From NCBI RefSeq assembly GCF_002917885.1, contig NZ_PQNY01000011.1, forward strand, positions 62,001-126,000: a DNA stretch of 64,000 bases, read 5' to 3'. Numbering within the stretch: the first letter of the stretch is position 1; every line of letters begins with the position of its first letter. Shown here piece after piece: positions 30,972 through 62,149 of this stretch. The notes under the pieces were generated by a model. That model had not been told where the DNA came from, searched no databases, and worked only from the letters and a program-made list of their open reading frames with translations. Origin of the DNA: Flavobacterium croceum DSM 17960 (GTDB taxonomy: Bacteria > Bacteroidota > Bacteroidia > Flavobacteriales > Flavobacteriaceae). The translations under genes were made by a program, and so were the position numbers.

Positions 30972-30998
30972 TTGTATCTATATAGAATGTTAATATAG

Positions 30999-31006
30999 CA
31001 AATATA
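30999..31006 (-). promoter_or_regulatory. -7 box (TATATTTG on the minus strand) for the PaiB-family gene
   Basis: CAAATATA on the plus strand reads TATATTTG on the minus strand, 27 bases before the ATG at 30971. Confidence 0.5.
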
Positions 31007-31089
31007 CTTAATAGATTTTGCCATTTTGTAATGTTTATTAGTAATAAACATAAAAACAAAGCGTTAATAAATTGTCAAACCCATTAAAT

Positions 31090-31764
31090 ATGAAAAAAAT
31101 AACCTTTTTATTGATGTATACCTCCATAATTTTTAGTCAAACACAAGAGGTAACATACAGCATAAGTTTTAATACAGATGTAGATATGATAGAAGACTAT
31201 TTGGGTAAAAACGCTCAAGATAAGGTAAAGCTTTACACTACCACTTTGCTTTTTAATGATACTTTTATGAAATATTTTCAAAATCCTAGCAAATTATCTC
31301 GTGATGACTATTCTATTCTAGAAGCAGCCACGTATACAGAAGGAAATTATTATAAACAAAATAATTCTAATGTAGTTTTTTTGGAAGAAAAAGAACCCTT
31401 ACATAAAGATACATTACTGTCTTACAGGTATATAACCCATTGGGAATATGCCACCGATGTAAAGGAAATTTTAGGATATACATGCAAGAAAGCATCTTGT
31501 GTTTTAAAAATAGATTATGGAAACGGAAAGCTAGATACCTTATATCCCATAACAGCTTGGTACACCGAAAAATTGGCTTTTGGTTGTGGCCCAAAAGGTA
31601 TAAGTGTGCCAGAGGGTTTTATATTGGAACTAGAAGATAAAATAGTTACCTATACAGCGCAGACTATTTTAAAATCTACAGAAAATAATATCTTTTTTGA
31701 CACTCATAAAAAAGTGATTACTATGGAAGATTTGTTTAGAAAAGTATATAAGTTAAAAGAATAA
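31090..31764 (+). CDS. Divergent GLPGLI-family secreted protein (copy 1)
   Basis: A 224-residue exported protein, first of four in this locus. A signal peptide runs to about residue 17 (MKKITFLLMYTSIIFSQ). The beta-rich body has the family Cys after a Gly-Tyr turn (LGYTCKKAS). The eponymous motif is degenerate: GPKGISVPEGFILEL instead of GPxGxxGLPGLIxE, and extra cysteines are present. I chose the ATG at 31090, giving a proper signal peptide; an in-frame TTG lies 18 bases upstream. No terminator separates it clearly from the small Cys-rich gene. Function of the family is unknown. Confidence 0.78.
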   Translation: MKKITFLLMYTSIIFSQTQEVTYSISFNTDVDMIEDYLGKNAQDKVKLYTTTLLFNDTFMKYFQNPSKLSRDDYSILEAATYTEGNYYKQNNSNVVFLEEKEPLHKDTLLSYRYITHWEYATDVKEILGYTCKKASCVLKIDYGNGKLDTLYPITAWYTEKLAFGCGPKGISVPEGFILELEDKIVTYTAQTILKSTENNIFFDTHKKVITMEDLFRKVYKLKE

Positions 31765-31862
31765 ATACACTAGAATAATGTACTTAAACAAAAAAAAACT
31801 ACATATTTTACTTACAAAAAATATATTTATTGAGTATTTCATTGATAAATTTAACATAAAAA

Positions 31863-31893
31863 TTTGCAATTATCATTTTTTTTTTCACATTTG
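31863..31893 (+). promoter_or_regulatory. Promoter of the four-cysteine protein gene (-33 TTTG, -7 CACATTTG)
   Basis: A TTTG at 31863-31866 is followed after 19 bases by CACATTTG (31886-31893), one mismatch from TAnnTTTG. The spacing matches the Bacteroidota promoter model. The start would be near 31900, with a leader of about 38 bases to the ATG at 31938. Confidence 0.5.
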
Positions 31894-31937
31894 TATTGGT
31901 TAACCAACGCAAATGTTTAATTTTAAATTTTAAGAAA

Positions 31938-32204
31938 ATGAAAAAAGTAATTTTTACTGCACTAGCTTTTATAGCTTTTAGCGGTGTTAGTATGGCAAGT
32001 ACAATGGCCGATGAGGAAATAGTGAAAGAGAATAAAGTGCAAAAAAATGAACAATCTAATCAGATTGTTGTAGCAGATTGCAATCAAGTAGCAGGAGCAT
32101 GTATGGAACTTTTTGAAGACAGTTTTGGTTGTATTGAAAGCTCGAAAATGTATAATTCATTATACAATATGATGTACAATAATTGTATGAATTCACAACA
32201 TTAA
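31938..32204 (+). CDS. Small secreted four-cysteine protein
   Basis: An 88-residue exported protein. The signal peptide (MKKVIFTALAFIAFSGVSMA) is followed by an acidic/lysine-rich spacer (about 24-47) and a compact C-terminus with four cysteines (VVADCNQVAGAC, FGCIESS, YNNCMN). Two disulfides in the periplasm or outside are plausible. I chose the ATG at 31938 over an in-frame start 42 bases upstream because it gives a standard signal peptide and fits the promoter. It lies inside a GLPGLI cluster. I recall similar short Cys proteins beside GLPGLI genes in flavobacteria, but cannot name a family. Confidence 0.75.
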   Translation: MKKVIFTALAFIAFSGVSMASTMADEEIVKENKVQKNEQSNQIVVADCNQVAGACMELFEDSFGCIESSKMYNSLYNMMYNNCMNSQH

Positions 32205-32211
32205 TAATTCC

Positions 32212-32253
32212 AATTACAACCAAATTCAATTTTGTGTTTGGTTGTAATTTTTT
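32212..32253 (+). terminator. Terminator of the four-cysteine protein gene
   Basis: A 13-bp perfect stem (AATTACAACCAAA / TTTGGTTGTAATT) with a 12-base loop is followed by TTTTT, starting 8 bases after the stop. It may let the small gene be expressed more strongly than the genes behind it. Confidence 0.85.
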
Positions 32254-32265
32254 AAATAATATTAT

Positions 32266-33006
32266 ATGAAAAAGTTAATAATAATTTTAATGTTGCTAAA
32301 TTTTTTCTATGTCTACTCTCAAACAACACGAGTAATATACAAAAAAGCCAGATATAATACCGAAACAGAAGCAGATAAACTAAAAAATGCAAGCAATCCA
32401 GTTGCTAATAGCGAAATGTATTTAAAACTTAAAAAAAGTTTTGAACTTGAATTTAATAGAGAGTTTGAATTGCTGTACAATAACACTGAATCTCAGTTTA
32501 AGAAAATTGAAGTAATGAAGAATGACAATGATAAAGAACTATTAAATTTTGAAATTGATAACGAAATTTATTATAAAAACATAGAAACTAAAGAAAAATT
32601 TTATTTTGATAACTCATCGTTTGATGGAAAATATATAGTAGAATTGCCATACGACCAATACAAATGGAATATAACCAACGAAAGCAAAACCATAAATGGC
32701 TATCTTTGTTACAAAGCAACCACAACCTACGAGGATATTTATAACCCAATTACAAAAAGAAAACTAACAATAATGAAAGAAGTATGGTTTACACCAAGTA
32801 TACCGAGTTCTTTTGGGCCAATAGGGTTAGATGGTTTGCCAGGTTTAGTATTGGAAGCATCAATAAACAATAAAATGTATTTTTATGCTTCAAAAATTGA
32901 ATTTGATGTAAAAGATGCAAAAATTGAAAAAATTACAGAAGGCAAAAAAATTACACTTAAAGATGTAGAAAACATGCTCATAAAAATTCACAATGATAGA
33001 AATTAG
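32266..33006 (+). CDS. GLPGLI-family secreted protein (copy 2)
   Basis: A 246-residue exported protein with a signal peptide (about 1-18, ending YVYSQ). The body is beta-rich, with the family features YKWNITNESKTINGYLCYKATTT (conserved Cys in LCYKA) and WFTPSIPSSFGPIGLDGLPGLVLEA near residues 170-195, the motif that names the family (Pfam Porph_ging). It closely resembles copy 4 in this locus, so they are tandem paralogues. Molecular function unknown; likely periplasmic or outer-membrane associated. Confidence 0.92.
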   Translation: MKKLIIILMLLNFFYVYSQTTRVIYKKARYNTETEADKLKNASNPVANSEMYLKLKKSFELEFNREFELLYNNTESQFKKIEVMKNDNDKELLNFEIDNEIYYKNIETKEKFYFDNSSFDGKYIVELPYDQYKWNITNESKTINGYLCYKATTTYEDIYNPITKRKLTIMKEVWFTPSIPSSFGPIGLDGLPGLVLEASINNKMYFYASKIEFDVKDAKIEKITEGKKITLKDVENMLIKIHNDRN

Positions 33007-33024
33007 TAAATTATTTAACCGCAT

Positions 33025-33714
33025 TTGAAATATTTATTATACATATTATTACCGTTGTATGTAATGGGGCAAATTAAAAACGGCTCTGCTCAATATAGTT
33101 TAACTTTTGGAGAAGACGAAAAATTTGAAAAAAGTGAAATTTCTAGTTTTTACGAAATAGCAAAACAAAATGCTAAATACATTACATTTACTATTGATTT
33201 TAACGAAAGTGAAATGGTTTTTTATACCAATGAACACTTAGAGTCGGATAATCAAAATATTAGTTTTTCTCTTTCATTTTCTGGAGTAAACGGAGTTTAT
33301 TACAAAAACAAGTTTGATGATTTTTTATTTAATCAAGTAGAAATAGAAGGTTTAGGAAATCTTGTTGTTCAAAAAGATTGTGTTTACAATTGGAATTTTG
33401 CAAATGAAACAAAAATGATAAATGATTTTTTGTGTTATAAAGCCACAACTACAAAAACGATAGATTCATTTACTTTTCCTGTTATTGCTTGGTATTGTCC
33501 AAAAATTCCAGCGCCTTATGGACCTAAAGGTTATGGTGGTTTGCCAGGATTAATTCTCGAATTACAAGAAAGAAGCACATTATTCGGACTCGTTAAAATA
33601 GAATTAAATAAACAAGAAACTGTCAATATTAAAAAACCTTCAAAAGGTAAAGTAGTAACAGAAAAGCAATTGGAAGAGTTACTCGAAAAACAAATTTTTG
33701 ATAACCACGATTAG
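33025..33714 (+). CDS. GLPGLI-family secreted protein (copy 3, TTG start)
   Basis: A 229-residue exported protein with the family marks DFLCYKATTT and YGPKGYGGLPGLILEL. The only signal-peptide-like N-terminus begins at TTG 33025 (KYLLYILLPLYVMGQ); the first ATG (33064) would remove it, so TTG is the likely start. It lies 18 bases after copy 2, with no terminator between. The central region is shorter and its C-terminus is lysine- and glutamate-rich (EKQLEELLEKQ). Confidence 0.87.
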   Translation: MKYLLYILLPLYVMGQIKNGSAQYSLTFGEDEKFEKSEISSFYEIAKQNAKYITFTIDFNESEMVFYTNEHLESDNQNISFSLSFSGVNGVYYKNKFDDFLFNQVEIEGLGNLVVQKDCVYNWNFANETKMINDFLCYKATTTKTIDSFTFPVIAWYCPKIPAPYGPKGYGGLPGLILELQERSTLFGLVKIELNKQETVNIKKPSKGKVVTEKQLEELLEKQIFDNHD

Positions 33715-33749
33715 CCAAAATAATATTGTGGCATATAACCTTGTTGCTT

Positions 33750-34505
33750 ATGATATTAAGAAAAATAAAGTTTCTACTATTTATTTTTATACTATGTAAT
33801 ACTCTACTATTGCATGCTCAAAAAAGTACTACAGTTATTTATAATATAGCTTTGGGAGGTTTGAATAGAGTAGATATGCATGCTAAAGATACTATAAAGA
33901 AAGATGTTCCTTCAAAATTTTTGAAAAACCAAGAAAAAATACAATTTTCATTAGTATTTGATTCCATTTCAAGTATTTATCAAATAGTAGATAAACTCGA
34001 AGAAAAAAGTAACCATGATTACCGAATTGCAACCATAATTAACGGAGGTACTCTTGTATATTATAAAAATAATAAGCAAAAAGAAAAAATGTATCAAGCA
34101 GAGCTTCAAGGACAAAAATTTAACGTATCAGTACCATTTCAACAATATAATTGGGAAATCACAAGTGAAACCAAAGTTGTAAATGGTTTTAAATGTTATA
34201 AGGCAATAACAACGATAGAGAAGATAGATAAAGGTAGAGAAACTACTACCATTTTGCATCCTGTGGTTTGGTTTACACCAGATATACCTTCAAGTTTTGG
34301 CCCTATGGGATTAGACGGTTTACCTGGTTTAGTTTTAGAAGGTACACTAGACGGAATAAAATATTTATATGCAACAAAAATTAATTTAAATACAACAGAT
34401 AAAGTAGATAAACCCAACAAAGGAATGGAGGTAACAGAAAGTGAATTTCAAGATATTAATGCAAAAATATACCGTGAAATTCAAAAAATAAAAAATAATA
34501 ATTAG
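33750..34505 (+). CDS. GLPGLI-family secreted protein (copy 4)
   Basis: A 251-residue exported protein. The start at ATG 33750 gives a signal peptide (MILRKIKFLLFIFILCNTLLL, cleaved after HAQ); an in-frame TTG lies 24 bases upstream. It has NGFKCYKAITT and WFTPDIPSSFGPMGLDGLPGLVLEG. The motif region is nearly the same as in copy 2, pointing to a recent duplication. It precedes an outer-membrane barrel gene by 61 bases. Function unknown. Confidence 0.91.
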   Translation: MILRKIKFLLFIFILCNTLLLHAQKSTTVIYNIALGGLNRVDMHAKDTIKKDVPSKFLKNQEKIQFSLVFDSISSIYQIVDKLEEKSNHDYRIATIINGGTLVYYKNNKQKEKMYQAELQGQKFNVSVPFQQYNWEITSETKVVNGFKCYKAITTIEKIDKGRETTTILHPVVWFTPDIPSSFGPMGLDGLPGLVLEGTLDGIKYLYATKINLNTTDKVDKPNKGMEVTESEFQDINAKIYREIQKIKNNN

Positions 34506-34566
34506 TTATTTTAAATTTAGTCGAAGCGGTTATCCTTAAATCTCATAAAATCATAACTTACACATA

Positions 34567-37221
34567 ATGCCAAAAAAACTATTTCTTTTTCTATTTTTTC
34601 CATACATCATTTTTTCTCAAACGCTTACAGGTAAAGTTTTAGACCAGAGTACTTTAAAGCCTTTAGAAAGTGCCAATATAATAGCCAAGCCACTTCAACA
34701 AAAAGCCTCTCTTAAATTTGCCATAGCCGATAATTTGGGTAGATACAAACTTGAACTAGAAAACGGTATTGAATATGAGGTAAGTGTATCTTACATAAGC
34801 TATAAAGAAGAAATTTTTGTAATACAGCCCAATAGCACCATTACAAATCACGATTTTAAGTTAGTGCCAACAGGAGAAACTCTAAAAGAAGTAATAATAA
34901 AGCATGAGTATAAACCCATAGATATAAAGAAAGATACTTTAACCTACGATATAAAAGCGTTTGCAAATGGTAACGAGCGCAAAATGAAAGAAGTTCTTGA
35001 GAAATTGCCTGGAGTAGAAGTAGATAAAAAAGGCAATGTAACGGTTCAAGGAAAAAAGGTTACTAAAATGCTTGTAGAAGGGAAATCTTTTTTTGGAGGA
35101 GGAAGTAAACTTGCTGTTGAAAATATTCCGGCAAATGCTCTAGATAAAATTGAAGTAATAGACCATTTTAATGAAGTTGGTTTTATGAAACAAGTGTCAG
35201 ATAGTGAAGATCTTGCTATGAATGTAAAACTCAAATCTGATAAAAAGAAATTTGTGTTTGGAGACCTAGAAGCTGCCGCAGAAGTGGCAAATACTACAGG
35301 GTATCATCTAGCTCATGCAGCTTTGTTTTATTATACACCTAAAAACAATATTAGCTTTATTGGTGATATAAACAATGTAGGTCGAAGTACTTTTACATTT
35401 GAAGATTTATTACGTTTTGATGGAGGAATAAGCAGTTTTATTTCGGGTAGAAAATCGCTTACCAACTTATTTTCATTTACAAACGATAATACAGATGTCG
35501 TGCAAAATAAGTCTCAATTTGGAGCGTTAAACTATAGCTTTACAGCTCATAAAAAAATCACAATTTCTGGTTATTCAATTTTTTCTAAAATACTATTAAA
35601 TGCATTTCAAGAAAGTAATAATCAATACTTACAGAGCAGTTTTAGTTCATTCGAAAATAAAACATTAAATAATAGTTCAAAATCAATTTTGGGTATTACC
35701 AACATAAAGTTTGATTTTAATTTTAGTAAAACAAGTCGAGTTTTTTATAATATTCAATTTCAAGCAAGTAATAACAATACTGATAATTTGTTAAAATCGG
35801 TTACGAATACCCTAAACACCAATTTTCAAACGCTATCCAAAGCAGACAATATATCTTTTAAAGATTATTTTGAATGGCATAAATCTTACAATGATAACCA
35901 CAATACAACATTTGTAATTAATCATGCTTACCAAAAAACAAAACCACAAAATCATTGGTTTACCGATCAACCTTTTTTATCGGGGGTTATACCTATAGTT
36001 AGTGATGCTTTTTATGTTATAAATCAAACAAAAGAAATACAAAATCATAGTGTTGATATTTTAGGCAAACATTATTGGATAGTAAACAATAAAAACCATA
36101 TTTATTCTGTGTTTGGTAACAACTTTGAAAACACATTGTTTAGCACACAAGAGCAACAAGTCTTGTCTACCAATCTTGTAAATAATTTTGATGGCTTTGG
36201 TAATCGTTTGCATTATCAATTAAATGATTTTTATGTTGGACTTGAGTATAAATTTAAACTTGGAAAATGGATTAACAAACCAGCAATTTATTTTCATAAA
36301 TACCATTTAATTACGCAACAAATCAACAACAATACTATTACTAAAAACTTTTGGCAACCACAGTTTACAAGCGAATATGAATTTAACAAATCTGAGAAAA
36401 TACAGTTTGATTATAAGTTGATAAATTCTTTTGCTGAAGCCTCTGCGTATGCCGAAAATTATACACTGCAAAGCTATAATTTGGTTTACAAAGGAAACGC
36501 AATGTTGCAAAACGAACAGTATCATAACGCTAGTTTGTATTACAATAAAATGAATATGTTTCGGGGTATACTAATGAATGCGTATTTGTATTTTAACAAA
36601 AAAGAACAAACACTTCGTAATCAGGTGGTACTTTCTGGAATTAATCAAATAAACACTCCTGTTGTTACAAATAATCCAGAAACTTCGTGGAGATTATTAA
36701 CAGATGTGAGTAAAAAAATATACCGATTTACATGTAAACTAAAAACAAGTTTATCTTGGTACAATTATATCCAAACTACAAATAATGCAAATTTTTCTAC
36801 AAATAGAAATAATCAAAGTATTGGTGCTTCTGTAAAAACAGCTCACAAAAAATGGCCCGATTTTATGCTAGGATATACAAAAAACTTTACCCAATTATCA
36901 GGTTTATCTACTTCTCGATTTAGCTCCAATGAGTTTAGAGCAGAAACCGAAATCACCTTTTTTAAGAATCTAATTTTTAAAGTAAACTATGTAAGCTTGT
37001 CAAATTTTGAAAACAGTAAAAGCATAAACTTTTTTCAAGTTACAGATTGTTCTTTACGTTACCAAAAGAAAAACAATCCTTTTACTTTTGAATTATCTGT
37101 GAATAATGTTTTTGATACTAAACAAAAAAATAATTATTCTTTTTCAGATTACATAATATCACAGCAAACAACCTATATTTTACCGAGAATTGTATTGTTA
37201 AGTTTAAGTTATAAATTATAA
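34567..37221 (+). CDS. Outer-membrane barrel with CarboxypepD_reg-like domain (GLPGLI partner receptor)
   Basis: An 884-residue outer-membrane protein of the TonB-dependent-receptor-like class. It has a signal peptide (about 1-18), a carboxypeptidase-regulatory-like domain (about 20-100: LTGKVLDQSTLKPLESANIIAK), a plug-like region (about 130-225: EKLPGVEVDKKGNVTVQGKKV, IPANALDKIEVIDHF) and a long barrel ending LLSLSYKL. The plug carries KMLVEGKSFFGGG, as in the receptors I know beside GLPGLI genes. It is the last gene of a five- or six-gene plus-strand cluster. The ligand or client is unknown. It overlaps the convergent GNAT gene by 13 bases. Confidence 0.88.
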   Translation: MPKKLFLFLFFPYIIFSQTLTGKVLDQSTLKPLESANIIAKPLQQKASLKFAIADNLGRYKLELENGIEYEVSVSYISYKEEIFVIQPNSTITNHDFKLVPTGETLKEVIIKHEYKPIDIKKDTLTYDIKAFANGNERKMKEVLEKLPGVEVDKKGNVTVQGKKVTKMLVEGKSFFGGGSKLAVENIPANALDKIEVIDHFNEVGFMKQVSDSEDLAMNVKLKSDKKKFVFGDLEAAAEVANTTGYHLAHAALFYYTPKNNISFIGDINNVGRSTFTFEDLLRFDGGISSFISGRKSLTNLFSFTNDNTDVVQNKSQFGALNYSFTAHKKITISGYSIFSKILLNAFQESNNQYLQSSFSSFENKTLNNSSKSILGITNIKFDFNFSKTSRVFYNIQFQASNNNTDNLLKSVTNTLNTNFQTLSKADNISFKDYFEWHKSYNDNHNTTFVINHAYQKTKPQNHWFTDQPFLSGVIPIVSDAFYVINQTKEIQNHSVDILGKHYWIVNNKNHIYSVFGNNFENTLFSTQEQQVLSTNLVNNFDGFGNRLHYQLNDFYVGLEYKFKLGKWINKPAIYFHKYHLITQQINNNTITKNFWQPQFTSEYEFNKSEKIQFDYKLINSFAEASAYAENYTLQSYNLVYKGNAMLQNEQYHNASLYYNKMNMFRGILMNAYLYFNKKEQTLRNQVVLSGINQINTPVVTNNPETSWRLLTDVSKKIYRFTCKLKTSLSWYNYIQTTNNANFSTNRNNQSIGASVKTAHKKWPDFMLGYTKNFTQLSGLSTSRFSSNEFRAETEITFFKNLIFKVNYVSLSNFENSKSINFFQVTDCSLRYQKKNNPFTFELSVNNVFDTKQKNNYSFSDYIISQQTTYILPRIVLLSLSYKL

Positions 37222-54297: not shown

Positions 54298-57200
54298 ATG
54301 ATGCAGCAAAATTTACAATTACAATCAATTCAGAAAGCAAGTAGCGTTTTTAAAAAATTGTTACAACTGCTTTTTGAAAGAAGAAATTCAAATTCTAAAA
54401 TCCATAATTGGTCGTTCCGATTAATGATTGGACTATTTATGATAATTTCTTCAGCCATGTATTCGCAAATGGCATTGGAGTCTTTTGAATCGGGAATACC
54501 AGCTACTTGGAGTAAATTTCAAAATAGCTTTGGGACATCGGCTTGGACCACAATTCCCGATGGTTATTTAGGAGGTAGCGCAGCTTATATTAATCCTGCT
54601 GCAGATAATATTGGCGCAGGTAATACTGCCGAATATTATTTGGTAACACCTTCTGTAACTGCGCCTTCTAATGGTGAAATACGATTCTATACCAAACAAG
54701 GCAGTGCTACAAACAACGGTACAATTTATCAATTAAGATTATCCACTGCAAGTCAGCCAGATATTAATGGTTTTACAATTGTGTTGCAGTCTTGGACAGA
54801 GGCCCAACTTAACACCAACGCTACTACTTATGAAGAAAAAATAGTTGCTTTGCCTGCTAGTATTCCTGCAGGATTGAATTTTTATTTAGCCTTTGTTGCG
54901 GTAAATGCACAAACAGGGGCAACTGCATCTGGAGATTCATGGTATGTAGATAATGTTAGGATAATTTCTTCTTGTCAAAAGGTAGTTTCTACAAACTTTA
55001 CTACTTCTAATATTTCTGCATACGGAGCAAATTTATCATGGACGCATCCATCAGCCACTAATTTTCAGATTCAGGTATTACCTCAAGGTGGAACTCCAAC
55101 TGGAACAGGTACGTCTACTTCAAACAGTTATTATGCTTCAGGTTTGTCGCAAAACACTACTTATGATGTGTATATTAAAACAGTTTGTGATGCTACTACT
55201 GCGAGTGATTGGGCAGGTCCTTTTTCATTTAAAACTAAATTGATAGGAACATTATGTACTGAGCCAATTATTATTAATCCAACAACTACTACACCTTATT
55301 CTTTGAGTGGTAATTTAGCAAATTATCAAAATACAAGTGTAACTTATACCACACAAGGTACAAACTGTTTGTCTCCTGCTATAACAGGTAATTATCTTAA
55401 TGGAGCTAAAGTTTTTTTTAGTTTTACACCTACACAAACAGGTTTGATTACAGTTACAACATCTACTGCCAATACAACACCTTTGGCCACTACCAATTGT
55501 TATAATCATATAACGGGAACTTTTATATATAATGGATGTTCTAATGTTGGAGTAAACTGTTTAGCAGGTATGAATACGAGTGCTGCAAATACTCCAAAGC
55601 AAATACCTAATTTTTATGTACAAGCAGGACAAACTTACATTATAGTACTTTCATCTAGTTTAACTCAAACAGCAGGAATTTGCTTTAATATAAGTGTTAA
55701 TTATGCTACATGTCCTGCACCAGCTACTTTTACTTACAAAGATTTACAACAAACTTCTGGTTTATTCTCTTGGGATAATAACGGAAGTTTAGTATCTAAT
55801 TGGCAATATTTAGTACAACCAGCTGCTACAGCAGCTCCTTCGGCTTCAACAACAGGTACAGCTACTACAACCAATATTGATAATACTGTATCTGGACTAA
55901 CTGCTGCTACTGCTTATAAATTATATGTTAGATCAGTTTGTGGAGGTACTCCTGGGGCTTGGAGTGTAGGATACCCTTTTACAACTCAATGTAATACTTT
56001 TAATACGCCATATTCTCAAGATTTTACAGGTACTTCTACAACTGTTCCAGCACCTTGTTGGACAGCATTAGATGTTAATAATGATGGAGTAACTTGGTCA
56101 TATTTGTCGAGTGCTGCTACTATGCAAACGAGCACATATCAAAATTATAATAATGATATGTTTATTTCTCCTCAAATAAATTTTTCGGGAGTTCAAAAAA
56201 GAATTCGCTATAAATATGCTGTCAATTCGGGTACTTCAAAATACTCTGTAAAAATTTCAACTACAGGTATTGGAGCTTCAAATTTTACATATACGTTATT
56301 ACCTGAAACTACAATTACTAATACCACCTTGACAGAAAAGATAATTAATATTCCAACATCTGTAACGGGATTAGTTAATATAGCTTTTGTTGTTTCTCCA
56401 GGTACAGGTAGTACCGCTACTAGAATTAATATTGATGATGTTTTTATTGAAGACAAACCAGCTTGTTCAACTCCAATTACCCCAAGTGTTGTAACAGGAT
56501 CAATTACTACAACAAGTGCTCAGTTTCAATGGACTTTAGGCGATACAGAAACACAATGGGAATATGTAATTGTACCTCAGGGCGATGCAGTTACTACAGG
56601 TACACCAGTTTTAACAAGCTCGAATCCTTTAACCGTGAATGGTTTAACACATGCTACTCGATATGACTTTTACATAAGAGCATATTGTAGTTCAAGTTTG
56701 CAAAGTGCTTGGGTAGGACCATTAAACTTTGTTACACTATGTAGTTCGTTTGATGCACCTTATACAGAAACTTTTAATGATGTTGATCCTACAACCAAAA
56801 AGTTTTGTTGGAGTATAAATAATGTAAATAATGATGCTGCTAAATGGACAATTTCTGCCACAGAAGCTGCGATTTTGAGAGGTTTTAACGGACCTACTTC
56901 TTTTAATGATTGGATAATAAGCCCTGCAATTAATACGGTAGGAAATAAAAAACTTACATTCAAATATAGAGCATTAGCTACTCCTTTTACACCAAATCCG
57001 AGAGCAGGATTGGAAGTTTTAATCTCTACTACAGATACTAATCCTTCGAGTTTTACAGTAATTCAACCTTTGTTTGAATTTACAAATACAGTTTATGCAG
57101 AAAAATCATTATATTTTACAGGAAACGGACCAGTATATATAGCCTTTAGAGTACCGCCTACTATGACTTCTCCTGGAACTGTATCTACATTAAATTTAGA

Positions 57201-60200
57201 TGATATTAATATCGTAGATGCGCCGCCTTGTCCAAATCCAGCTAATTTAGTAGTTACCAATATAACTCAGACGAATGCTACTTTTTCTTGGTTGCAAGGA
57301 TATGCAGAGAATCAATGGCAAATAGCTATTCAACCACAAGGAACAGGTTTACCAACTTCTGGAACTGTAATAAATACAAATCCTTACACAACAACAGTAT
57401 TAACTCCAAATACAGCTTACGAAGTATATATTAGAGCAAATTGTACAAATAATAATACAACAAGTGATTGGGTAGGGCCTGTTACTTTTAGAACACTTTG
57501 TACTGCTTACAATACACCATTTGTAGAGACTTTTAACACAGACTCTACATCTGAAGAATGTTGGAGAGTAGTAAACAATAACAATGATGCTAACCCATGG
57601 AATATGAATGTTACGGTAAATCCGTATGAAGGGAACCAAATGGCAGGTATGTTTACAGGAAGTAATGGTGCCAATGATGATTGGTTGATTTCTCCACCAA
57701 TTAACATACAGCCAAATCAAAGATTAAGATATTACTACAGAGTTAATAATTCATCTTTTACAGAAGATTTAAAAATTAAAGTTTCCACAAATGGAGTAGA
57801 ACTATCACAATTTACAACTACAATTTACGATTCAGATACTGACCCTGTTTTAATAAATAATACGTATTATAAAGAAAAGGTAATTAATTTACCAGCTAGT
57901 TTAACTGGTATAATTAATATAGCCTTTCAAGTGCCGTATAGAGCTCCTGAGCCTATAGGTTATAGAGGACAATTGTTGTTTATAGATAAAGTAATTGTAG
58001 AAGATATACCTGTATGTGCAACACCTACAAATGTAATTATGCAAAACGTGTTAGATACATCAGCACAGGTAACTTGGAATGCCAATGCAGGAGAAACATC
58101 TTGGGAGGTAGTGGTTCAGCCATACGGAACACCAGCTCCAACTGCAACAGCAAATCCATTATATTCTCATATAGCCACTTCCATACCCTATACAGTAACT
58201 GGATTAAATGCTTCTACTAAATATCAAGTTTATGTAAGAGCAATATGTAATGCAAGTACTCAAAGTGTTTGGACAACTCCAATAGAGTTTAATACTAAAT
58301 GTAATATGAACGATTTGTGTGAATATACATTTACATTATCAGGAGGTACTTCAAATGGAGTAGGAGGTGATTTTGATATTTATCAGAATGGAGCTATAGT
58401 ACAATCATTTAGTTTTCCTACTGGGCCAGCAAATGTTACTCCGCCGCCAGTAGATGTAACCGTATTTTTATGCAACGGAACTCAATTTTCATTATTTTGG
58501 GATTCTATAGGGACTGCTTTAAATCAATATCCAAATGCAGTAATACAAATAAAAAATAGTTCAGGTACAGTGGTTTGGACAAGTCCAGCAGGCTTAGGAG
58601 TACCGAGAACAACATTGTATACAGGTGTTCCAACTTGTGGAACAATTACATGTCCGCAACCAACAAATCTAACTGTAAATAGTCAAGGTGTACTATCTTG
58701 GACTGCAGGAGGAACAGAAACCCAATGGGAAGTAGCTATACAGCCTGTAGGTAATGGAACGATACCTCAATCGGGTACGATAGTGTCTTCGCCAACATAT
58801 ACTCCCACAGCTACAGATTTTACCAACTTAACTTCTGGTACTTATGAATTTTTAGTTCGTGCTATATGTGGTAGTGGAAATACAAGTTATTGGTCTGGAC
58901 CTAAAGTGTTTATTACTAACGACGATGCTTCTCATGCACTTACTGTTCCAGTAAACAATACCAATCTTTGTACAAATACGGCAACTAAGGTTTCTTTTGT
59001 TGGGGCTACTCCTTCTTCAGAATCTAGTTCATGTTCAACGGTAAATAATGGCGATATTTGGTTCCAATTTGTGGCAACATCAAAAGTTCATGTTATAGAA
59101 GCCAATGGTTTTACAGGTAATTTTTATCAGAGTTCTGGTGATGAGCCTTATCCAAATATGATGATGACTTTGTATAAAGTTTTAACCGATGGAAGTTTGC
59201 AACAAGTAACTTGTAGTGAAAATAATTCTATTGTAGCTCAATATATGTCGGAGTTAGTTGTAGGAACTACTTATAAGTTGAGATTGACATTAATTTCTCC
59301 AACTCAAAATACAAGACAATTTGAAATTTGTATAAAAACACCTTCAGATTTATGTAATGTAGATGTTGTGAATGGAGGTTTTGAGGAGCCACCAATGCCA
59401 TTTGTTACTGGAGTTTCTACTATTTCTACTCAATATGTTGTACCTGGATGGAGAGTTAATTTGAATACTTGGAGTTCAATTTTCTTTACAGAGGAATTAA
59501 ATTCTTTAGGTGCAGGACCAATAGAAGGTGGGCAATGTATACAATTATTATCGGATCCTGAGGCAGATTGGAATCCTTCAGATCCAAATATCAAAGGTTT
59601 GTATAAAGATTTAGATTCATCAGAATTAACTCAAATTAATTATAATTTTGCTCATGCAGCTAGAAATACGTCTGGTAGTTCAGTTCAGCTATTTGCAGGA
59701 CCACCATCAGGACCTTTTACATTATTAACAGAGTCATATTCTCCGGGTGCTTTATGGATAATGAATAGTGGTTCGTACAATGTTCCAACAGGTCAAAATA
59801 TTACTCGATTTATATTTAGATCTAAACAAAATATTATTGGAAACTTACTAGACGCAGTAAATTTTAAGGGATTTAATGGTATAAATACTCCAAATAAAAC
59901 TTTAACTTGTAGTCAAGTAACCACTTCTGTAGATGCAGAAGGATTAGGGGTTTGGGAAGCAGATTCTTCTAATCCTGCCGAAACTATAATTGAAAATCCA
60001 AATAATGCTACTACAAATATTTCTGGTTTTAATACTTCTGGAATCTACAAGTATCATTGGAAAACAAGATATTGTGATAATATTATAACAATTACATACC
60101 AAGGCATATCTACTACACCTACTACTAGTCCAGTTGGTTTATGTCTTAATGAAACAGCATCGGCTTTAACTGCAACTGTACCTTCTGGATATACTTTAAT

Positions 60201-61152
60201 GTGGTATACTACTTCTGTAGGTGGTACAGGTAGTACAACGGCTCCTATACCTTCTACTAATTTGGTTGGAACTACTACTTATTATGTAAGTGCGGTAGAC
60301 TCAGCAGGATGCATTGGACCTAGAGCATCAATAGTAGTAACTGTAAATACTTTACCAACAGCAAGCATAAGCGGAACAACAACAATTTGTTCAGGAACAG
60401 GAGCAACGATAAGTTTTAATGGTACACCAAATGCTACAGTAAGTTATACTATCAATGGTGGAGCTACACAAACAATCGTATTAAACAATAGTGGAAGTGC
60501 GAGTGTAAGTACAGGCAACCTAAGTTCGAGTGCTAGTTATGCTTTAGTAAGTGTAAGTTCAGCCACTACACCATCATGTAGTCAAACTGTAACAGGAAGC
60601 GCAGTAATAAGCTTGTATTCAGTAATACAAACCGATGTTTCTGCAACATGTATTGACTATGAATTACAATTAACAACTTCACCTATAAATAATTCTTACA
60701 ATACTACTTCAGCTAGTTATCAATGGGTAGATTCAAATGGGGTTTCTGTAGGTTCTAACATTGATACTTTTAATGTGAATGATTATTTAGAAATGTATCC
60801 AAATGCAAGTTTCCCTCTTACATTTACAGTTATAGTAAGTCAAAATGGATGTTCAGGTTCAGATTCAATTATTATAGAAAACCATCCATGTAAGTTAATA
60901 CCAAAAGGAATTTCACCAAATGGAGATGGAGATAATGATCGTTTTGATTTGAATGGTTTAGGAGTAAATGAATTAGTAGTATTTAATAGATATGGTACCA
61001 AAGTATATGGTTTTCAAGGTAAATATACAAACCAGTGGAGTGGCTTATCAGATGATGGAAAAGAACTTCCAGACGGAACATATTTTTACAGTATTGTAAA
61101 AGACAACGGTACTACAGTAACGGGTTGGGTTTACATCAATAGACAATATTAA
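54298..61152 (+). CDS. Giant modular surface protein with FN3 and adhesin-like modules and CHU_C (type B) sorting domain
   Basis: A 2284-residue protein for type IX secretion. The long n-region (about 1-40) precedes a signal segment ending near 57. Four jelly-roll 'choice-of-anchor J'-like modules each end in a D-D-[VI]-x-I[VI]ED-like strand (about 58-222, 569-722, 816-978 and 1070-1238), separated by FN3 modules (about 223-314, 473-568, 722-815, 978-1070, 1240-1334 and 1450-1542). A 315-472 PPC-like region, a DUF642-like NGGFEEP module (about 1684-1860) and Ig-like parts (about 1938-2199) follow. The C-terminal 85 residues (PKGISPNGDGDNDRFD to VYINRQY) are the CHU_C type B sorting domain. 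It is likely an adhesin or surface-exposed glycoprotein; no catalytic module is recognised. Confidence 0.92.
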   Translation: MMQQNLQLQSIQKASSVFKKLLQLLFERRNSNSKIHNWSFRLMIGLFMIISSAMYSQMALESFESGIPATWSKFQNSFGTSAWTTIPDGYLGGSAAYINPAADNIGAGNTAEYYLVTPSVTAPSNGEIRFYTKQGSATNNGTIYQLRLSTASQPDINGFTIVLQSWTEAQLNTNATTYEEKIVALPASIPAGLNFYLAFVAVNAQTGATASGDSWYVDNVRIISSCQKVVSTNFTTSNISAYGANLSWTHPSATNFQIQVLPQGGTPTGTGTSTSNSYYASGLSQNTTYDVYIKTVCDATTASDWAGPFSFKTKLIGTLCTEPIIINPTTTTPYSLSGNLANYQNTSVTYTTQGTNCLSPAITGNYLNGAKVFFSFTPTQTGLITVTTSTANTTPLATTNCYNHITGTFIYNGCSNVGVNCLAGMNTSAANTPKQIPNFYVQAGQTYIIVLSSSLTQTAGICFNISVNYATCPAPATFTYKDLQQTSGLFSWDNNGSLVSNWQYLVQPAATAAPSASTTGTATTTNIDNTVSGLTAATAYKLYVRSVCGGTPGAWSVGYPFTTQCNTFNTPYSQDFTGTSTTVPAPCWTALDVNNDGVTWSYLSSAATMQTSTYQNYNNDMFISPQINFSGVQKRIRYKYAVNSGTSKYSVKISTTGIGASNFTYTLLPETTITNTTLTEKIINIPTSVTGLVNIAFVVSPGTGSTATRINIDDVFIEDKPACSTPITPSVVTGSITTTSAQFQWTLGDTETQWEYVIVPQGDAVTTGTPVLTSSNPLTVNGLTHATRYDFYIRAYCSSSLQSAWVGPLNFVTLCSSFDAPYTETFNDVDPTTKKFCWSINNVNNDAAKWTISATEAAILRGFNGPTSFNDWIISPAINTVGNKKLTFKYRALATPFTPNPRAGLEVLISTTDTNPSSFTVIQPLFEFTNTVYAEKSLYFTGNGPVYIAFRVPPTMTSPGTVSTLNLDDINIVDAPPCPNPANLVVTNITQTNATFSWLQGYAENQWQIAIQPQGTGLPTSGTVINTNPYTTTVLTPNTAYEVYIRANCTNNNTTSDWVGPVTFRTLCTAYNTPFVETFNTDSTSEECWRVVNNNNDANPWNMNVTVNPYEGNQMAGMFTGSNGANDDWLISPPINIQPNQRLRYYYRVNNSSFTEDLKIKVSTNGVELSQFTTTIYDSDTDPVLINNTYYKEKVINLPASLTGIINIAFQVPYRAPEPIGYRGQLLFIDKVIVEDIPVCATPTNVIMQNVLDTSAQVTWNANAGETSWEVVVQPYGTPAPTATANPLYSHIATSIPYTVTGLNASTKYQVYVRAICNASTQSVWTTPIEFNTKCNMNDLCEYTFTLSGGTSNGVGGDFDIYQNGAIVQSFSFPTGPANVTPPPVDVTVFLCNGTQFSLFWDSIGTALNQYPNAVIQIKNSSGTVVWTSPAGLGVPRTTLYTGVPTCGTITCPQPTNLTVNSQGVLSWTAGGTETQWEVAIQPVGNGTIPQSGTIVSSPTYTPTATDFTNLTSGTYEFLVRAICGSGNTSYWSGPKVFITNDDASHALTVPVNNTNLCTNTATKVSFVGATPSSESSSCSTVNNGDIWFQFVATSKVHVIEANGFTGNFYQSSGDEPYPNMMMTLYKVLTDGSLQQVTCSENNSIVAQYMSELVVGTTYKLRLTLISPTQNTRQFEICIKTPSDLCNVDVVNGGFEEPPMPFVTGVSTISTQYVVPGWRVNLNTWSSIFFTEELNSLGAGPIEGGQCIQLLSDPEADWNPSDPNIKGLYKDLDSSELTQINYNFAHAARNTSGSSVQLFAGPPSGPFTLLTESYSPGALWIMNSGSYNVPTGQNITRFIFRSKQNIIGNLLDAVNFKGFNGINTPNKTLTCSQVTTSVDAEGLGVWEADSSNPAETIIENPNNATTNISGFNTSGIYKYHWKTRYCDNIITITYQGISTTPTTSPVGLCLNETASALTATVPSGYTLMWYTTSVGGTGSTTAPIPSTNLVGTTTYYVSAVDSAGCIGPRASIVVTVNTLPTASISGTTTICSGTGATISFNGTPNATVSYTINGGATQTIVLNNSGSASVSTGNLSSSASYALVSVSSATTPSCSQTVTGSAVISLYSVIQTDVSATCIDYELQLTTSPINNSYNTTSASYQWVDSNGVSVGSNIDTFNVNDYLEMYPNASFPLTFTVIVSQNGCSGSDSIIIENHPCKLIPKGISPNGDGDNDRFDLNGLGVNELVVFNRYGTKVYGFQGKYTNQWSGLSDDGKELPDGTYFYSIVKDNGTTVTGWVYINRQY

Positions 61153-61166
61153 TATCAATAATAATT

Positions 61167-61197
61167 ACCTGTCTTTATATAATTTATAAAGGCAGGT
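61167..61197 (+). other. Intercistronic hairpin between surface-protein and PorP/SprF genes
   Basis: A 13-bp stem (61167-61179 with 61185-61197, one T-G pair) with a 5-base loop lies between the two genes. It has no T run, so it looks like an mRNA processing or partial-attenuation structure rather than a strong terminator. Confidence 0.5.
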
Positions 61198-61213
61198 TTA
61201 ATCGAAAACACGT

Positions 61214-62149
61214 ATGAAAAAAATATATTTTGCATTAGCGGTATTGTCTTTATTGAATAGTAAGATATTCGCACAACAAAATCCTCACTACACTCAATAT
61301 ATGTATAATATGAATGTGGTAAACCCTGCATATGCAGGTTCTAAAGAAACTTTGTCTGGAGGATTATTATATAGACAACAATGGGCAGGATTAGAAGGAG
61401 CTCCAAAAACAGCTACTTTAGCTTTGCATAGTCCGATAGGTAAAAATGTTGGATTAGGTATATCGGCTATTTCAGATAAAATTGGTCCAATTGAAGAAAA
61501 TAATTTTTACGCAGATTTTTCTTATAAATTAAATTTAGGAGGAAATCATAGATTATCATTTGGTTTAAAAGCAGGAGCTACTTTTCAAAAAGTTGGGCTT
61601 TTCTCCGAAATTGGAAATGGATATATTCAACAAGCAGGAGATATCTCTTTTAGACAAGATGCTAATAATACTTTTTTAAACATTGGTGCAGGAATATTCT
61701 ATCATACCAATAAATATTATGCAGCTTTTTCGGTGCCGAATATGCTAGATCAAAATTATTTAGACATTACCAATAATGGTCAAGTATACCAATTTGGTAG
61801 CACAAAACAACATTACTTTTTTACAGGAGGTTATGTGTTTGATTTATCATCAAATACCAAATTTAAACCTTCTTTTATGATGAAGTCTGCATTTAATGCA
61901 CCAATTTCATTTGACTTTTCTGCTAATTTTCTGTTTTTTGAAAAATTTGAAATAGGAGGAACTTATAGGCTAGATGACTCTATGGGGGCAATGATAAATT
62001 ATGCCATAACACCTAGTATAAGGTTAGGATATGCCTACGATCATGTTCTTTCAGATTTAAAAGTAACAACGACCGCATCGCACGAATTTATGTTGTTGTT
62101 TGATTTGAATTTTTCTAAAAAAGTATCCGTTTCACCAAGATTCTTCTAA
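61214..62149 (+). CDS. PorP/SprF-family type IX secretion membrane protein
   Basis: A 311-residue outer-membrane barrel. It has a signal peptide (about 1-20, FAQ) and the family hallmark QNPHYTQYMYNMNVVNPAYAGSKE, then alternating beta strands to the C-terminus (SVSPRFF). In F. johnsoniae, SprF is needed to secrete the adhesin SprB, and CHU_C proteins are often encoded beside a PorP/SprF homologue. This one sits 61 bases after such a protein, so it probably serves as its dedicated partner (inference). An OmpA-family gene follows 13 bases later. Confidence 0.92.
   Translation: MKKIYFALAVLSLLNSKIFAQQNPHYTQYMYNMNVVNPAYAGSKETLSGGLLYRQQWAGLEGAPKTATLALHSPIGKNVGLGISAISDKIGPIEENNFYADFSYKLNLGGNHRLSFGLKAGATFQKVGLFSEIGNGYIQQAGDISFRQDANNTFLNIGAGIFYHTNKYYAAFSVPNMLDQNYLDITNNGQVYQFGSTKQHYFFTGGYVFDLSSNTKFKPSFMMKSAFNAPISFDFSANFLFFEKFEIGGTYRLDDSMGAMINYAITPSIRLGYAYDHVLSDLKVTTTASHEFMLLFDLNFSKKVSVSPRFF

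Follow-up and report, generated by a model that had tools for sequence, protein, structure and literature searches.

A variable small secreted protein co-varies with its adjacent GLPGLI-family protein upstream of a constant outer-membrane receptor in flavobacteria

Organisation of the locus

The window (the whole stretch of DNA that was analysed, 64,000 nucleotides from the 2.95 Mb genome of Flavobacterium croceum DSM 17960, listed as G000 among the genomes compared) contains a six-gene locus, read on its + strand, that encodes four proteins of the GLPGLI family (G1 to G4), a small secreted protein (SP) and an outer-membrane receptor. A preliminary description of this DNA had reported six genes in a row on one strand, four GLPGLI-family proteins and a small protein with four cysteines, all of which were confirmed: G1 to G4 each exceeded the curated cut-off of the NCBIfam model TIGR01200 (50 bits), and the cysteines of the SP are residues 48, 55, 65 and 83. 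The features are as follows.

31090-31764, + strand: G1, a divergent GLPGLI-family protein of 224 residues without an SP of its own (TIGR01200, 61.3 bits)
31876-31885, + strand: T10 homopolymer upstream of the SP gene, presumed promoter spacer
31896-31907, no strand assigned: TTGGTTAACCAA palindrome, presumed operator or transcript-start element, 42 nucleotides 5' of the SP start codon
31938-32204, + strand: SP, 88 residues, with a Sec-type signal peptide, a low-confidence linker and a predicted four-cysteine helical hairpin
32212-32249, + strand: hairpin terminator after the SP gene, a 14-bp stem followed by T's
32266-33006, + strand: G2, the GLPGLI protein adjoining the SP and its presumed cognate partner (145.8 bits)
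33025-33714, + strand: G3, a GLPGLI protein without an SP of its own, TTG start (136.5 bits)
33750-34505, + strand: G4, the GLPGLI protein adjoining the receptor, without an SP of its own (134.3 bits)
34567-37221, + strand: outer-membrane receptor of the SP-associated family, 884 residues, with a CarboxypepD_reg-like N-terminal part

Recurrence of the SP, GLPGLI and receptor genes

When the SP sequence was searched against 299 genomes of the family with an E limit of 0.01, the source genome alone was returned, so that sequence conservation of the SP across the family was rejected, while at E values up to 1 matches were recorded in 144 of 398 genus genomes, many of them across the signal peptide only; the latter revealed tandem series of small genes sharing the SP signal peptide. 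Because the SP sequence thus matched the source genome alone or, in many genomes, only by its signal, the receptor was taken as the anchor of a census, and was compared as a whole protein rather than by its KMLVEGKSFFGGG plug motif. With one genome per species and two candidates scored per genome, the 398 genus genomes yielded 64 matches of at least 570 bits and at least 37% identity in 61 genomes including the source, the relatives in the other 60 being 37-64% identical to the window receptor. Below 570 bits came a gap and then a second receptor family at 387 bits and about 31% identity. The census sample consisted of 62 loci besides that of the window, with the neighbouring receptor pair of G320 taken as one, together with L047, 63 in all; L055, which has no receptor, was dropped and L051, a 3-kb contig, was not entered.

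One rule was applied to all sets, an SP-like open reading frame (ORF) being a signal (hydrophobicity threshold 1.7) plus two cysteines 24-45 apart, directly before a GLPGLI gene; at least 1.5 kb of upstream sequence was needed, as available in 57 of the 63 loci, and GLPGLI genes were counted within 500 nucleotides of the receptor. On this basis, 56 of the 57 genus loci had a GLPGLI gene in that interval and 48 had an SP-like ORF just before a GLPGLI gene, while in four of the nine SP misses (L059, L066, L073 and L081) the SP site was present with its start codon lost. Among the best 20 of 50 non-self matches from other genera of the family, an SP was found in 17 loci and an adjacent GLPGLI gene in 18. 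By way of contrast, 16 control loci of the second receptor family, one of them from the source genome, gave GLPGLI in 16/16 and SP in 0/16, and unrelated large ORFs of the same loci as the census gave an SP-like ORF at 1/198; under a looser rule without the cysteine spacing and with a hydrophobicity threshold of 1.9, a single control locus of the 16 (L107) had an SP-like ORF. The small gene therefore recurs with GLPGLI genes (48/57 and 17/20 against 0/16 and 1/198), contrary to the lack of co-occurrence that the preliminary description had named as refuting, and the link between the parts of the locus, formerly drawn from position only, is supported both by this co-occurrence and by the covariation described below. 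The further suggestion, in which the GLPGLI proteins and the receptor would handle the small protein as their client, has gained strong indirect support, from the co-occurrence and from a covariation of the SP that is mainly with the adjacent GLPGLI protein.

A search of 295 class genomes gave four receptor matches outside the family, at 30-32% identity, and in that sample the SP-linked receptor looks confined to the family. No receptor relative was found in plasmid records at E 1e-60, and comparison with the sequences of solved structures gave one match, at E 0.69. Against Pfam, the window receptor scored 32.0 with CarbopepD_reg_2 (cut-off 32.2) and 14.2 with Plug (cut-off 23.9), with no barrel model listed.

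Three further loci deserve mention. The source genome has a second, canonical GLPGLI and receptor locus without an SP (L092, G000:C3:106795-113191), its receptor being 31% identical to that of the window; loci related to it occur in many genomes of the genus, and the role that GLPGLI and receptor had ancestrally may be visible in them. In L055 (G550:C34:1-12000) a second SP-GLPGLI array has no receptor of the SP-linked family within 12 kb, the receptor locus lying elsewhere (L087), and in L067 a four-cysteine SP adjoins a receptor gene (G567:C1:672242-674875) that has decayed and contains 17 stops, as in a dying copy of the locus.

Covariation of the SP with the adjacent GLPGLI protein

Comparison of 38 SP pairs within 17 loci demonstrated a conserved signal and a variable mature part: by the medians, 86% of the signal DNA and 79% of the 100 nucleotides upstream (lower quartile 52%) were shared, against 54% for the mature DNA, where shuffling gave 50%, and 26% for the mature residues, where it gave 22%. 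Two cysteines aside, most of the secreted part could not be aligned between SPs.

The covariation set comprised 102 SP-GLPGLI pairs, less two spurious SP calls (L072 and L121) and plus the window pair, hence 101. Similarity between mature SPs correlated with that between the adjacent GLPGLI proteins (r 0.52), a value equalled in none of 999 within-locus shuffles (maximum 0.42), whereas the SP-receptor correlation was 0.08. Restriction to one module per locus (69) gave 0.51 for SP and GLPGLI, 0.08 for SP and receptor and 0.34 for GLPGLI and receptor. Since linkage alone could produce a correlation between SP and GLPGLI, the first and second GLPGLI genes after an SP were compared in 28 SP-GLPGLI-GLPGLI triples from 24 loci, and the SP correlated at r 0.66 with the first and at 0.25 with the second. 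These data support the view that an SP and the next GLPGLI gene probably travel together and vary as a cognate pair.

Replacement of the cassette as a block

Among 37 loci whose receptor-adjacent GLPGLI gene has an SP, ten pairs had receptor DNA at least 89% identical. In eight of these the signal DNA was kept (0.89-0.98) while the mature SP was unrelated (0.50-0.57), as was the GLPGLI DNA (0.57-0.61, shuffled 0.54), and the first 1.4 kb of the receptor stayed 89-95% identical throughout. The pattern was most sharply delimited in L110 and L114, which showed no alignment from -899, about 29 codons into the SP, to -6 at the receptor start, between flanks of 90-93% identity apart from two extra GLPGLI genes in L114. 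Between loci with near-identical receptors, the block that begins where the signal peptide ends and reaches the receptor start is thus often replaced.

Silent-site divergence (dS) in two further comparisons, L057/L087 and L063/L079, was 0.44 and 0.66 for the SP against 1.33 and 1.32 for the receptor, SP and GLPGLI being about half as diverged as the receptors and the module accordingly the younger part.

Displaced and silent copies

Upstream DNA matching the start of the locus's own receptor gene (a scar) was found in 24/57 loci (40 matches) and in 0/16 control loci; one match in L049 and two in L074, which fell deeper within the receptor gene, were dropped, leaving 37 scars in 23 loci. A GLPGLI stop codon lay at most 200 nucleotides before the implied receptor start in 30 of these, and an SP ORF lay at most 600 nucleotides after the scar in 23. 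In seven of nine multi-scar loci at least two scars ended within 5 nucleotides of the same receptor position, and the GLPGLI proteins of one locus had a median best match of 37% identity. Because scars end at one position even though the GLPGLI proteins of a locus are that dissimilar, the unit seems to have been duplicated first and its interior replaced later.

The 100 SP sites examined, in 54 loci, comprised 84 that were intact, ten that had lost the start codon only (to ATA, TAG, TAA, ACG or AAA) with the rest open, five with neither a start nor an open frame or cysteine pair, and one with an alternative start; sites with a good start and a broken frame numbered 0/100. The ten start-only losses are to be read with some shared ancestry (three in L052, two in L064), with an ATG three codons on in L059 and L073, and with the possibility that ATA initiates weakly in mind. 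Losses of this kind would be odd for random decay and suit copies silenced yet kept as donors. SPs without a standard start codon would probably be missed by ordinary gene calling.

GLPGLI genes (148) outnumbered SP genes (85), after which the next gene was directly a GLPGLI gene in 77 cases and another SP in seven. No intact SP preceded 71 of the 148 GLPGLI genes; in the set used for nearest-neighbour comparison, 12 of 74 such unpaired genes had a start-less SP site before them. It was apparent from the same comparison that unpaired GLPGLI proteins differ from a random draw of the paired ones, since nearest neighbours of the same class numbered 98/150 against a shuffled mean of 77 (0/1000 as high), and the proposal that they serve as a pure immunity reservoir was for that reason only partly supported.

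Properties of the SP

The signal peptide of the window SP is of the Sec type, hydrophobic and without a double glycine. An AlphaFold2 model built from an alignment of two sequences only predicted a hairpin of helices 48-63 and 69-87, with a predicted local distance difference test score (pLDDT) of 80-92 in the blocks past residue 50, while the part ahead of residue 42 was not reliably modelled; the natural reading is that a disulfide would pin this hairpin, the outer cysteines falling at its open end. Only two mature cysteines were present in 60 of the 85 SPs, spaced by exactly 32 residues in 32 of the 60 and by 29-34 in 22 more, and the length after the signal had a median of 62 residues. For 11 locus pairs with similar SPs, the ratio of non-synonymous to synonymous divergence (dN/dS) of the mature part was 0.10-0.43 in ten and 0.75 in one, the latter from a pair with few changes and several of the dS values lying near saturation; the low ratios in ten of the pairs indicate that the SP genes are real.

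Profile searches with the window SP gave no match in Pfam or PADLOC, none above cut-off in NCBIfam (one chance match at 0.23), and in PHROGs two weak matches to families of unknown function (E 0.024 and 0.058). Ten other SPs gave sub-threshold results throughout Pfam and NCBIfam, the best being ChaB (E 5e-4, 21.0 against a cut-off of 27), and five of the ten gave nothing in PHROGs. A fold search with the SP model returned nothing better than E 1.0.

Two SP genes stand in tandem before a single GLPGLI gene in L060, L061, L084, L085, L086, L088 and L116. The tandem SPs of L084 and L086 have mature parts alike by eye and different signal peptides, an arrangement that resembles two-peptide systems.

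Elements upstream and downstream of the SP gene

Runs of at least nine T's lay 40-110 nucleotides before the SP start at 22 of the 100 SP sites (16 loci), against 0/254 control ORFs, 0/60 receptor genes, 1/148 GLPGLI genes, 23/6400 random stretches and 3% of shuffled SP upstreams; if part of a promoter, such a run may be a slippage-prone spacer. A GGTTAACC core preceded 32 of the 100 sites (23 loci), at -40 to -47 in 29 of the 32, and the window SP has both the T10 run and the TTGGTTAACCAA palindrome with its GGTTAACC core. The palindrome occurs once in the source genome, as does a reversed control pattern, and its candidacy as a genome-unique signal was thereby ruled out; the evidence for it consequently lies in position and recurrence, not rarity. 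In several species the full palindrome or the core alone is found upstream of SP genes, each time at a fixed distance. Taken with the silent copies and start-codon losses, the T run and the palindrome suggest that SP expression may be switchable.

The promoter pattern sought was the strict TTG-N16-24-TAnnTTTG, which is of the Bacteroidota type; it was not present before the window SP, and was found before just 9 of the 85 SP genes (shuffled mean 1.5). An own promoter for the small protein, as the preliminary description had it, is thus plausible only, favoured by the T10 run and palindrome and disfavoured by the absence of the strict pattern. The strong terminator ascribed to the same gene was borne out, with its 14-bp stem, folding energy of -16.6 kcal/mol (z -4.9) and following T's. 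Terminator-like hairpins followed 23 of 77 SP genes, against 26/385 shuffled sequences and 8/90 other GLPGLI genes, and are enriched but not general.

Relationships and predicted fold of the GLPGLI proteins

Membership was judged by the TIGR01200 cut-off given above and by Pfam PF09697 (Porph_ging, cut-off 25), the latter passed by G2, G3 and G4 but not by G1 (22.1). The GLPGL[IV] motif is present in G2, G3 and G4, while G1 has SVPEGFILE instead; G1, G2 and G4 also exceeded the cut-off of PF22252, the bowl domain of PNGase F-II, and G3 fell below it. The source genome contains ten motif matches in seven genes.

The near-identity of G2 and G4 around the motif that had been pointed out was upheld (20/22 residues agree). 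The local amplification deduced from it was not shown, because over their whole length the two proteins share just 35% identity, and for each a gene of another species is the closer match: among the loci compared, the nearest relative of G2 was the SP-paired GLPGLI protein of L047, Flavobacterium phragmitis (51%), and that of G4 the SP-paired GLPGLI protein of L048 (50%). A recent amplification of these two genes was ruled out on the same grounds. The nearest relative of G3 outside the locus was again SP-paired (L085, 44%).

A G4 model of modest confidence, built from five sequences (pLDDT 68.5, predicted template-modelling score 0.63), matched the N-terminal bowl domain of PNGase F-II (4r4x, 4r4z and 7zgn) with Z 12.8-13.2 over 171 residues at 3.1 A, and Foldseek matched it to the same domains with E 1e-6 to 2e-5. 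Further matches were to RseB (Z 9.5), MucB (8.5), VioE (8.2), an ependymin-related protein (8.0) and LolA (7.6). GLPGLI proteins are thus predicted to fold like the bowl domain and to resemble RseB and LolA, but the LolA match may reflect a merely common arrangement, since the scores of VioE and ependymin-related proteins are no lower. For a bowl of this kind the binding of a peptide would have precedent, because one listed MucB structure is a complex that includes the periplasmic part of MucA. A GLPGLI profile gave just two weak matches among the sequences of solved structures (7zgn, E 0.07; 2fpn, E 0.13). Residue 148 of G4, its sole mature cysteine, lies in GYxCYKAT and is at least 90% conserved in 50 GLPGLI proteins (alignment A1).

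Neighbouring genes

The genes flanking the locus lie on the opposite strand and encode an FMN_bind_2 protein and a GNAT acetyltransferase (Pfam), both of which look unrelated to it. Elsewhere in the window, at 54298-62149, the gene for a protein of 2284 residues precedes that for one of 311 residues, which looks PorP/SprF-like; the two are possibly a type IX secretion pair.

Comparison with known systems

As members of the GLPGLI family, G1 to G4 belong to a group that Pfam describes, under PF09697, as of unknown function, and which here gains an SP partner, a constant receptor and a specific co-variation. The bowl domain of PNGase F-II shares their predicted fold, the window proteins differing in being stand-alone, secreted and without a glycanase domain; its function is stated as unknown in the relevant passage of PMC9522356. 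RseB/MucB and LolA/LolB are half-barrels that bind peptide or lipid and may be alike in fold, with an identity to GLPGLI proteins of only about 5-13%.

Bacteroidetocins, class IIa-like peptide toxins of Bacteroidetes (PMC6671954), resemble the SP as small exported cysteine peptides made by Bacteroidota. As described in the passages drawn on from that source, they have a double-glycine leader of 15-16 residues, an ABC (ATP-binding cassette) peptidase-transporter and a mature part of about 42-48 residues (PMC6671954), unlike the SP with its Sec-type signal, median of 62 residues after the signal and predicted helical hairpin. Assignment of the SP to the bacteroidetocins was rejected, there being no double-glycine leader and no ABC peptidase-transporter beside the locus.

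Polymorphic toxin-immunity arrays and the pneumococcal blp locus combine a conserved leader, a hypervariable mature part, a cognate downstream gene, displaced silent copies and effector-less partner genes. The SP loci share these features, and the covariation and swap data revealed in them a conserved N-terminus, an exchangeable C-terminal part and a cognate downstream gene; any toxicity of the SP would be by analogy. They differ from such arrays in that no homologous component was found and in having GLPGLI and a presumed TonB-type receptor as fixed parts. Open-licence PubMed Central literature on Flavobacterium and Bacteroidetes bacteriocins, immunity, phase variation and hypervariable loci surfaced nothing on this locus among the matches listed, nor was the name Porph_ging found there; GLPGLI appeared in three papers, the passages of one of them being expression lists.

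Interpretation

That an SP and its matching GLPGLI gene are swapped as a unit before a constant receptor is, on the comparisons of loci given above, highly probable. The best explanation of the whole regards the SP as a polymorphic effector, the adjacent GLPGLI protein as its cognate, immunity-like binder and the receptor as a constant transporter, and is held tentatively, its probability, with the purpose included, being judged a little below even. With a promoter and terminator to itself, the SP gene would be expressed separately; its product would pass through Sec and, once in the periplasm, fold into a disulfide-pinned helical hairpin serving as effector; the adjacent GLPGLI protein, an RseB/LolA-like bowl in the periplasm, would bind the SP of its own module specifically and would protect by sequestering it; and the TonB-type receptor would carry the SP across the outer membrane, either out of the producer or into a neighbour. 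Specificity would then sit in the SP-GLPGLI pair, with the receptor as a common gate and GLPGLI deciding whether the SP does harm. The most likely purpose would be antagonism or self-recognition among close relatives, the SP acting on cells without the matching GLPGLI protein. Replacement of a module as a block might come about by recombination at two places, the signal-peptide DNA, which is conserved, and the start of the receptor gene; modules so displaced would remain upstream as silent or GLPGLI-only copies.

Of the ways in which the same parts might work together, antagonism with immunity appears to fit best the unpaired GLPGLI genes, the silenced SPs beside intact GLPGLI genes and the turnover of cassettes, and the surplus of GLPGLI over SP is reminiscent of orphan immunity genes. 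The main rival, rather unlikely as it stands, makes the GLPGLI protein an SP-specific, LolA-like periplasmic carrier that delivers the SP to the receptor for exposure, and the SP a tag or shield of variable sequence at the cell surface, directed for instance against grazers or against phages that use the receptor, so that diversity would amount to antigenic variation. The predicted RseB/LolA-like fold, the acidity of the SPs and the pairing of GLPGLI with a related receptor without an SP would all suit such display, as would the T runs at 22 of the 100 SP sites and the start-codon-only losses, which resemble phase and antigenic variation; yet the 71 of 148 GLPGLI genes without an intact SP have no obvious use as carriers, and the SP does not covary with the receptor on which it would dock (r 0.08). 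The same low correlation bears on a distinctly less probable alternative, namely that the cell secretes the SP as a scavenger or pheromone-like peptide and takes it back up via the receptor, with GLPGLI as periplasmic binder and diversity preventing piracy by neighbours. A presumed TonB-type receptor downstream on the same strand and the cognate SP-GLPGLI variation are as this would require, but import specificity would be expected in the receptor, the first 1.4 kb of which stays 89-95% identical in eight close pairs while the SP is replaced, and no conserved metal- or cofactor-binding pattern was noticed beyond the cysteines, without a systematic search. GLPGLI genes are common enough, with motif matches in seven genes of the source genome, for chance neighbourhood or ordinary paralogous expansion without functional connection to be considered; the co-occurrence counts and a covariation strongest with the adjacent gene make this most improbable.

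Several observations weigh against the effector and immunity interpretation, or against parts of it. The window locus has no receptor scar and, from 30972 to 34566, no SP signal remnant besides the SP itself, whose outer cysteines are 35 residues apart, not 32. SPs are mostly acidic, with a median net charge of -4, which sets them apart from cationic pore-forming bacteriocins. GLPGLI would appear to have a job besides immunity, because the second receptor family pairs with GLPGLI without an SP, and some unpaired GLPGLI proteins may form a separate functional class. Similarity of GLPGLI and receptor also correlates (r 0.32 over the 101 pairs), and the correlation of the SP with the second GLPGLI protein is above chance (1/999 shuffles as high). 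As regards replacement, two of the ten close pairs do not fit, the cassette being shared in L054/L058 and the signal differing too in L116/L117; the ten fall into just three groups of related loci, hence the swap events were few; and the 120 nucleotides upstream of the SP were alike in two of the eight swapped pairs (0.89 and 0.93) and only 0.55-0.63 in the other six, so that the upstream homology is short. In L065/L110 and L110/L115 the SP dS was 0.86 and 0.92 against receptor values of 0.62 and 0.51, the receptor being the younger part; both this order and its reverse, reported above, nevertheless fit the exchange of modules against a separate receptor history.

Neither the GLPGLI family nor the bowl domain of PNGase F-II has an assigned function so far, and specific binding of small exported proteins would, if true, be the first for both; a co-varying SP partner makes GLPGLI function a question of binding with cognate and non-cognate controls built in. 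Should the effector and immunity interpretation hold, flavobacteria would possess an uncharacterised polymorphic antagonism system, its receptor being present in 61 of 398 genus genomes, at one genome per species. More tentatively still, it might constitute a novel class of antagonism between bacteria, or of self-recognition, in Flavobacteriaceae, in which hypervariable disulfide-pinned hairpins neutralised by cognate GLPGLI proteins would be moved via a dedicated constant receptor; replacement of cassettes would diversify them, and T runs in the promoter together with changes of the start codon would switch them.

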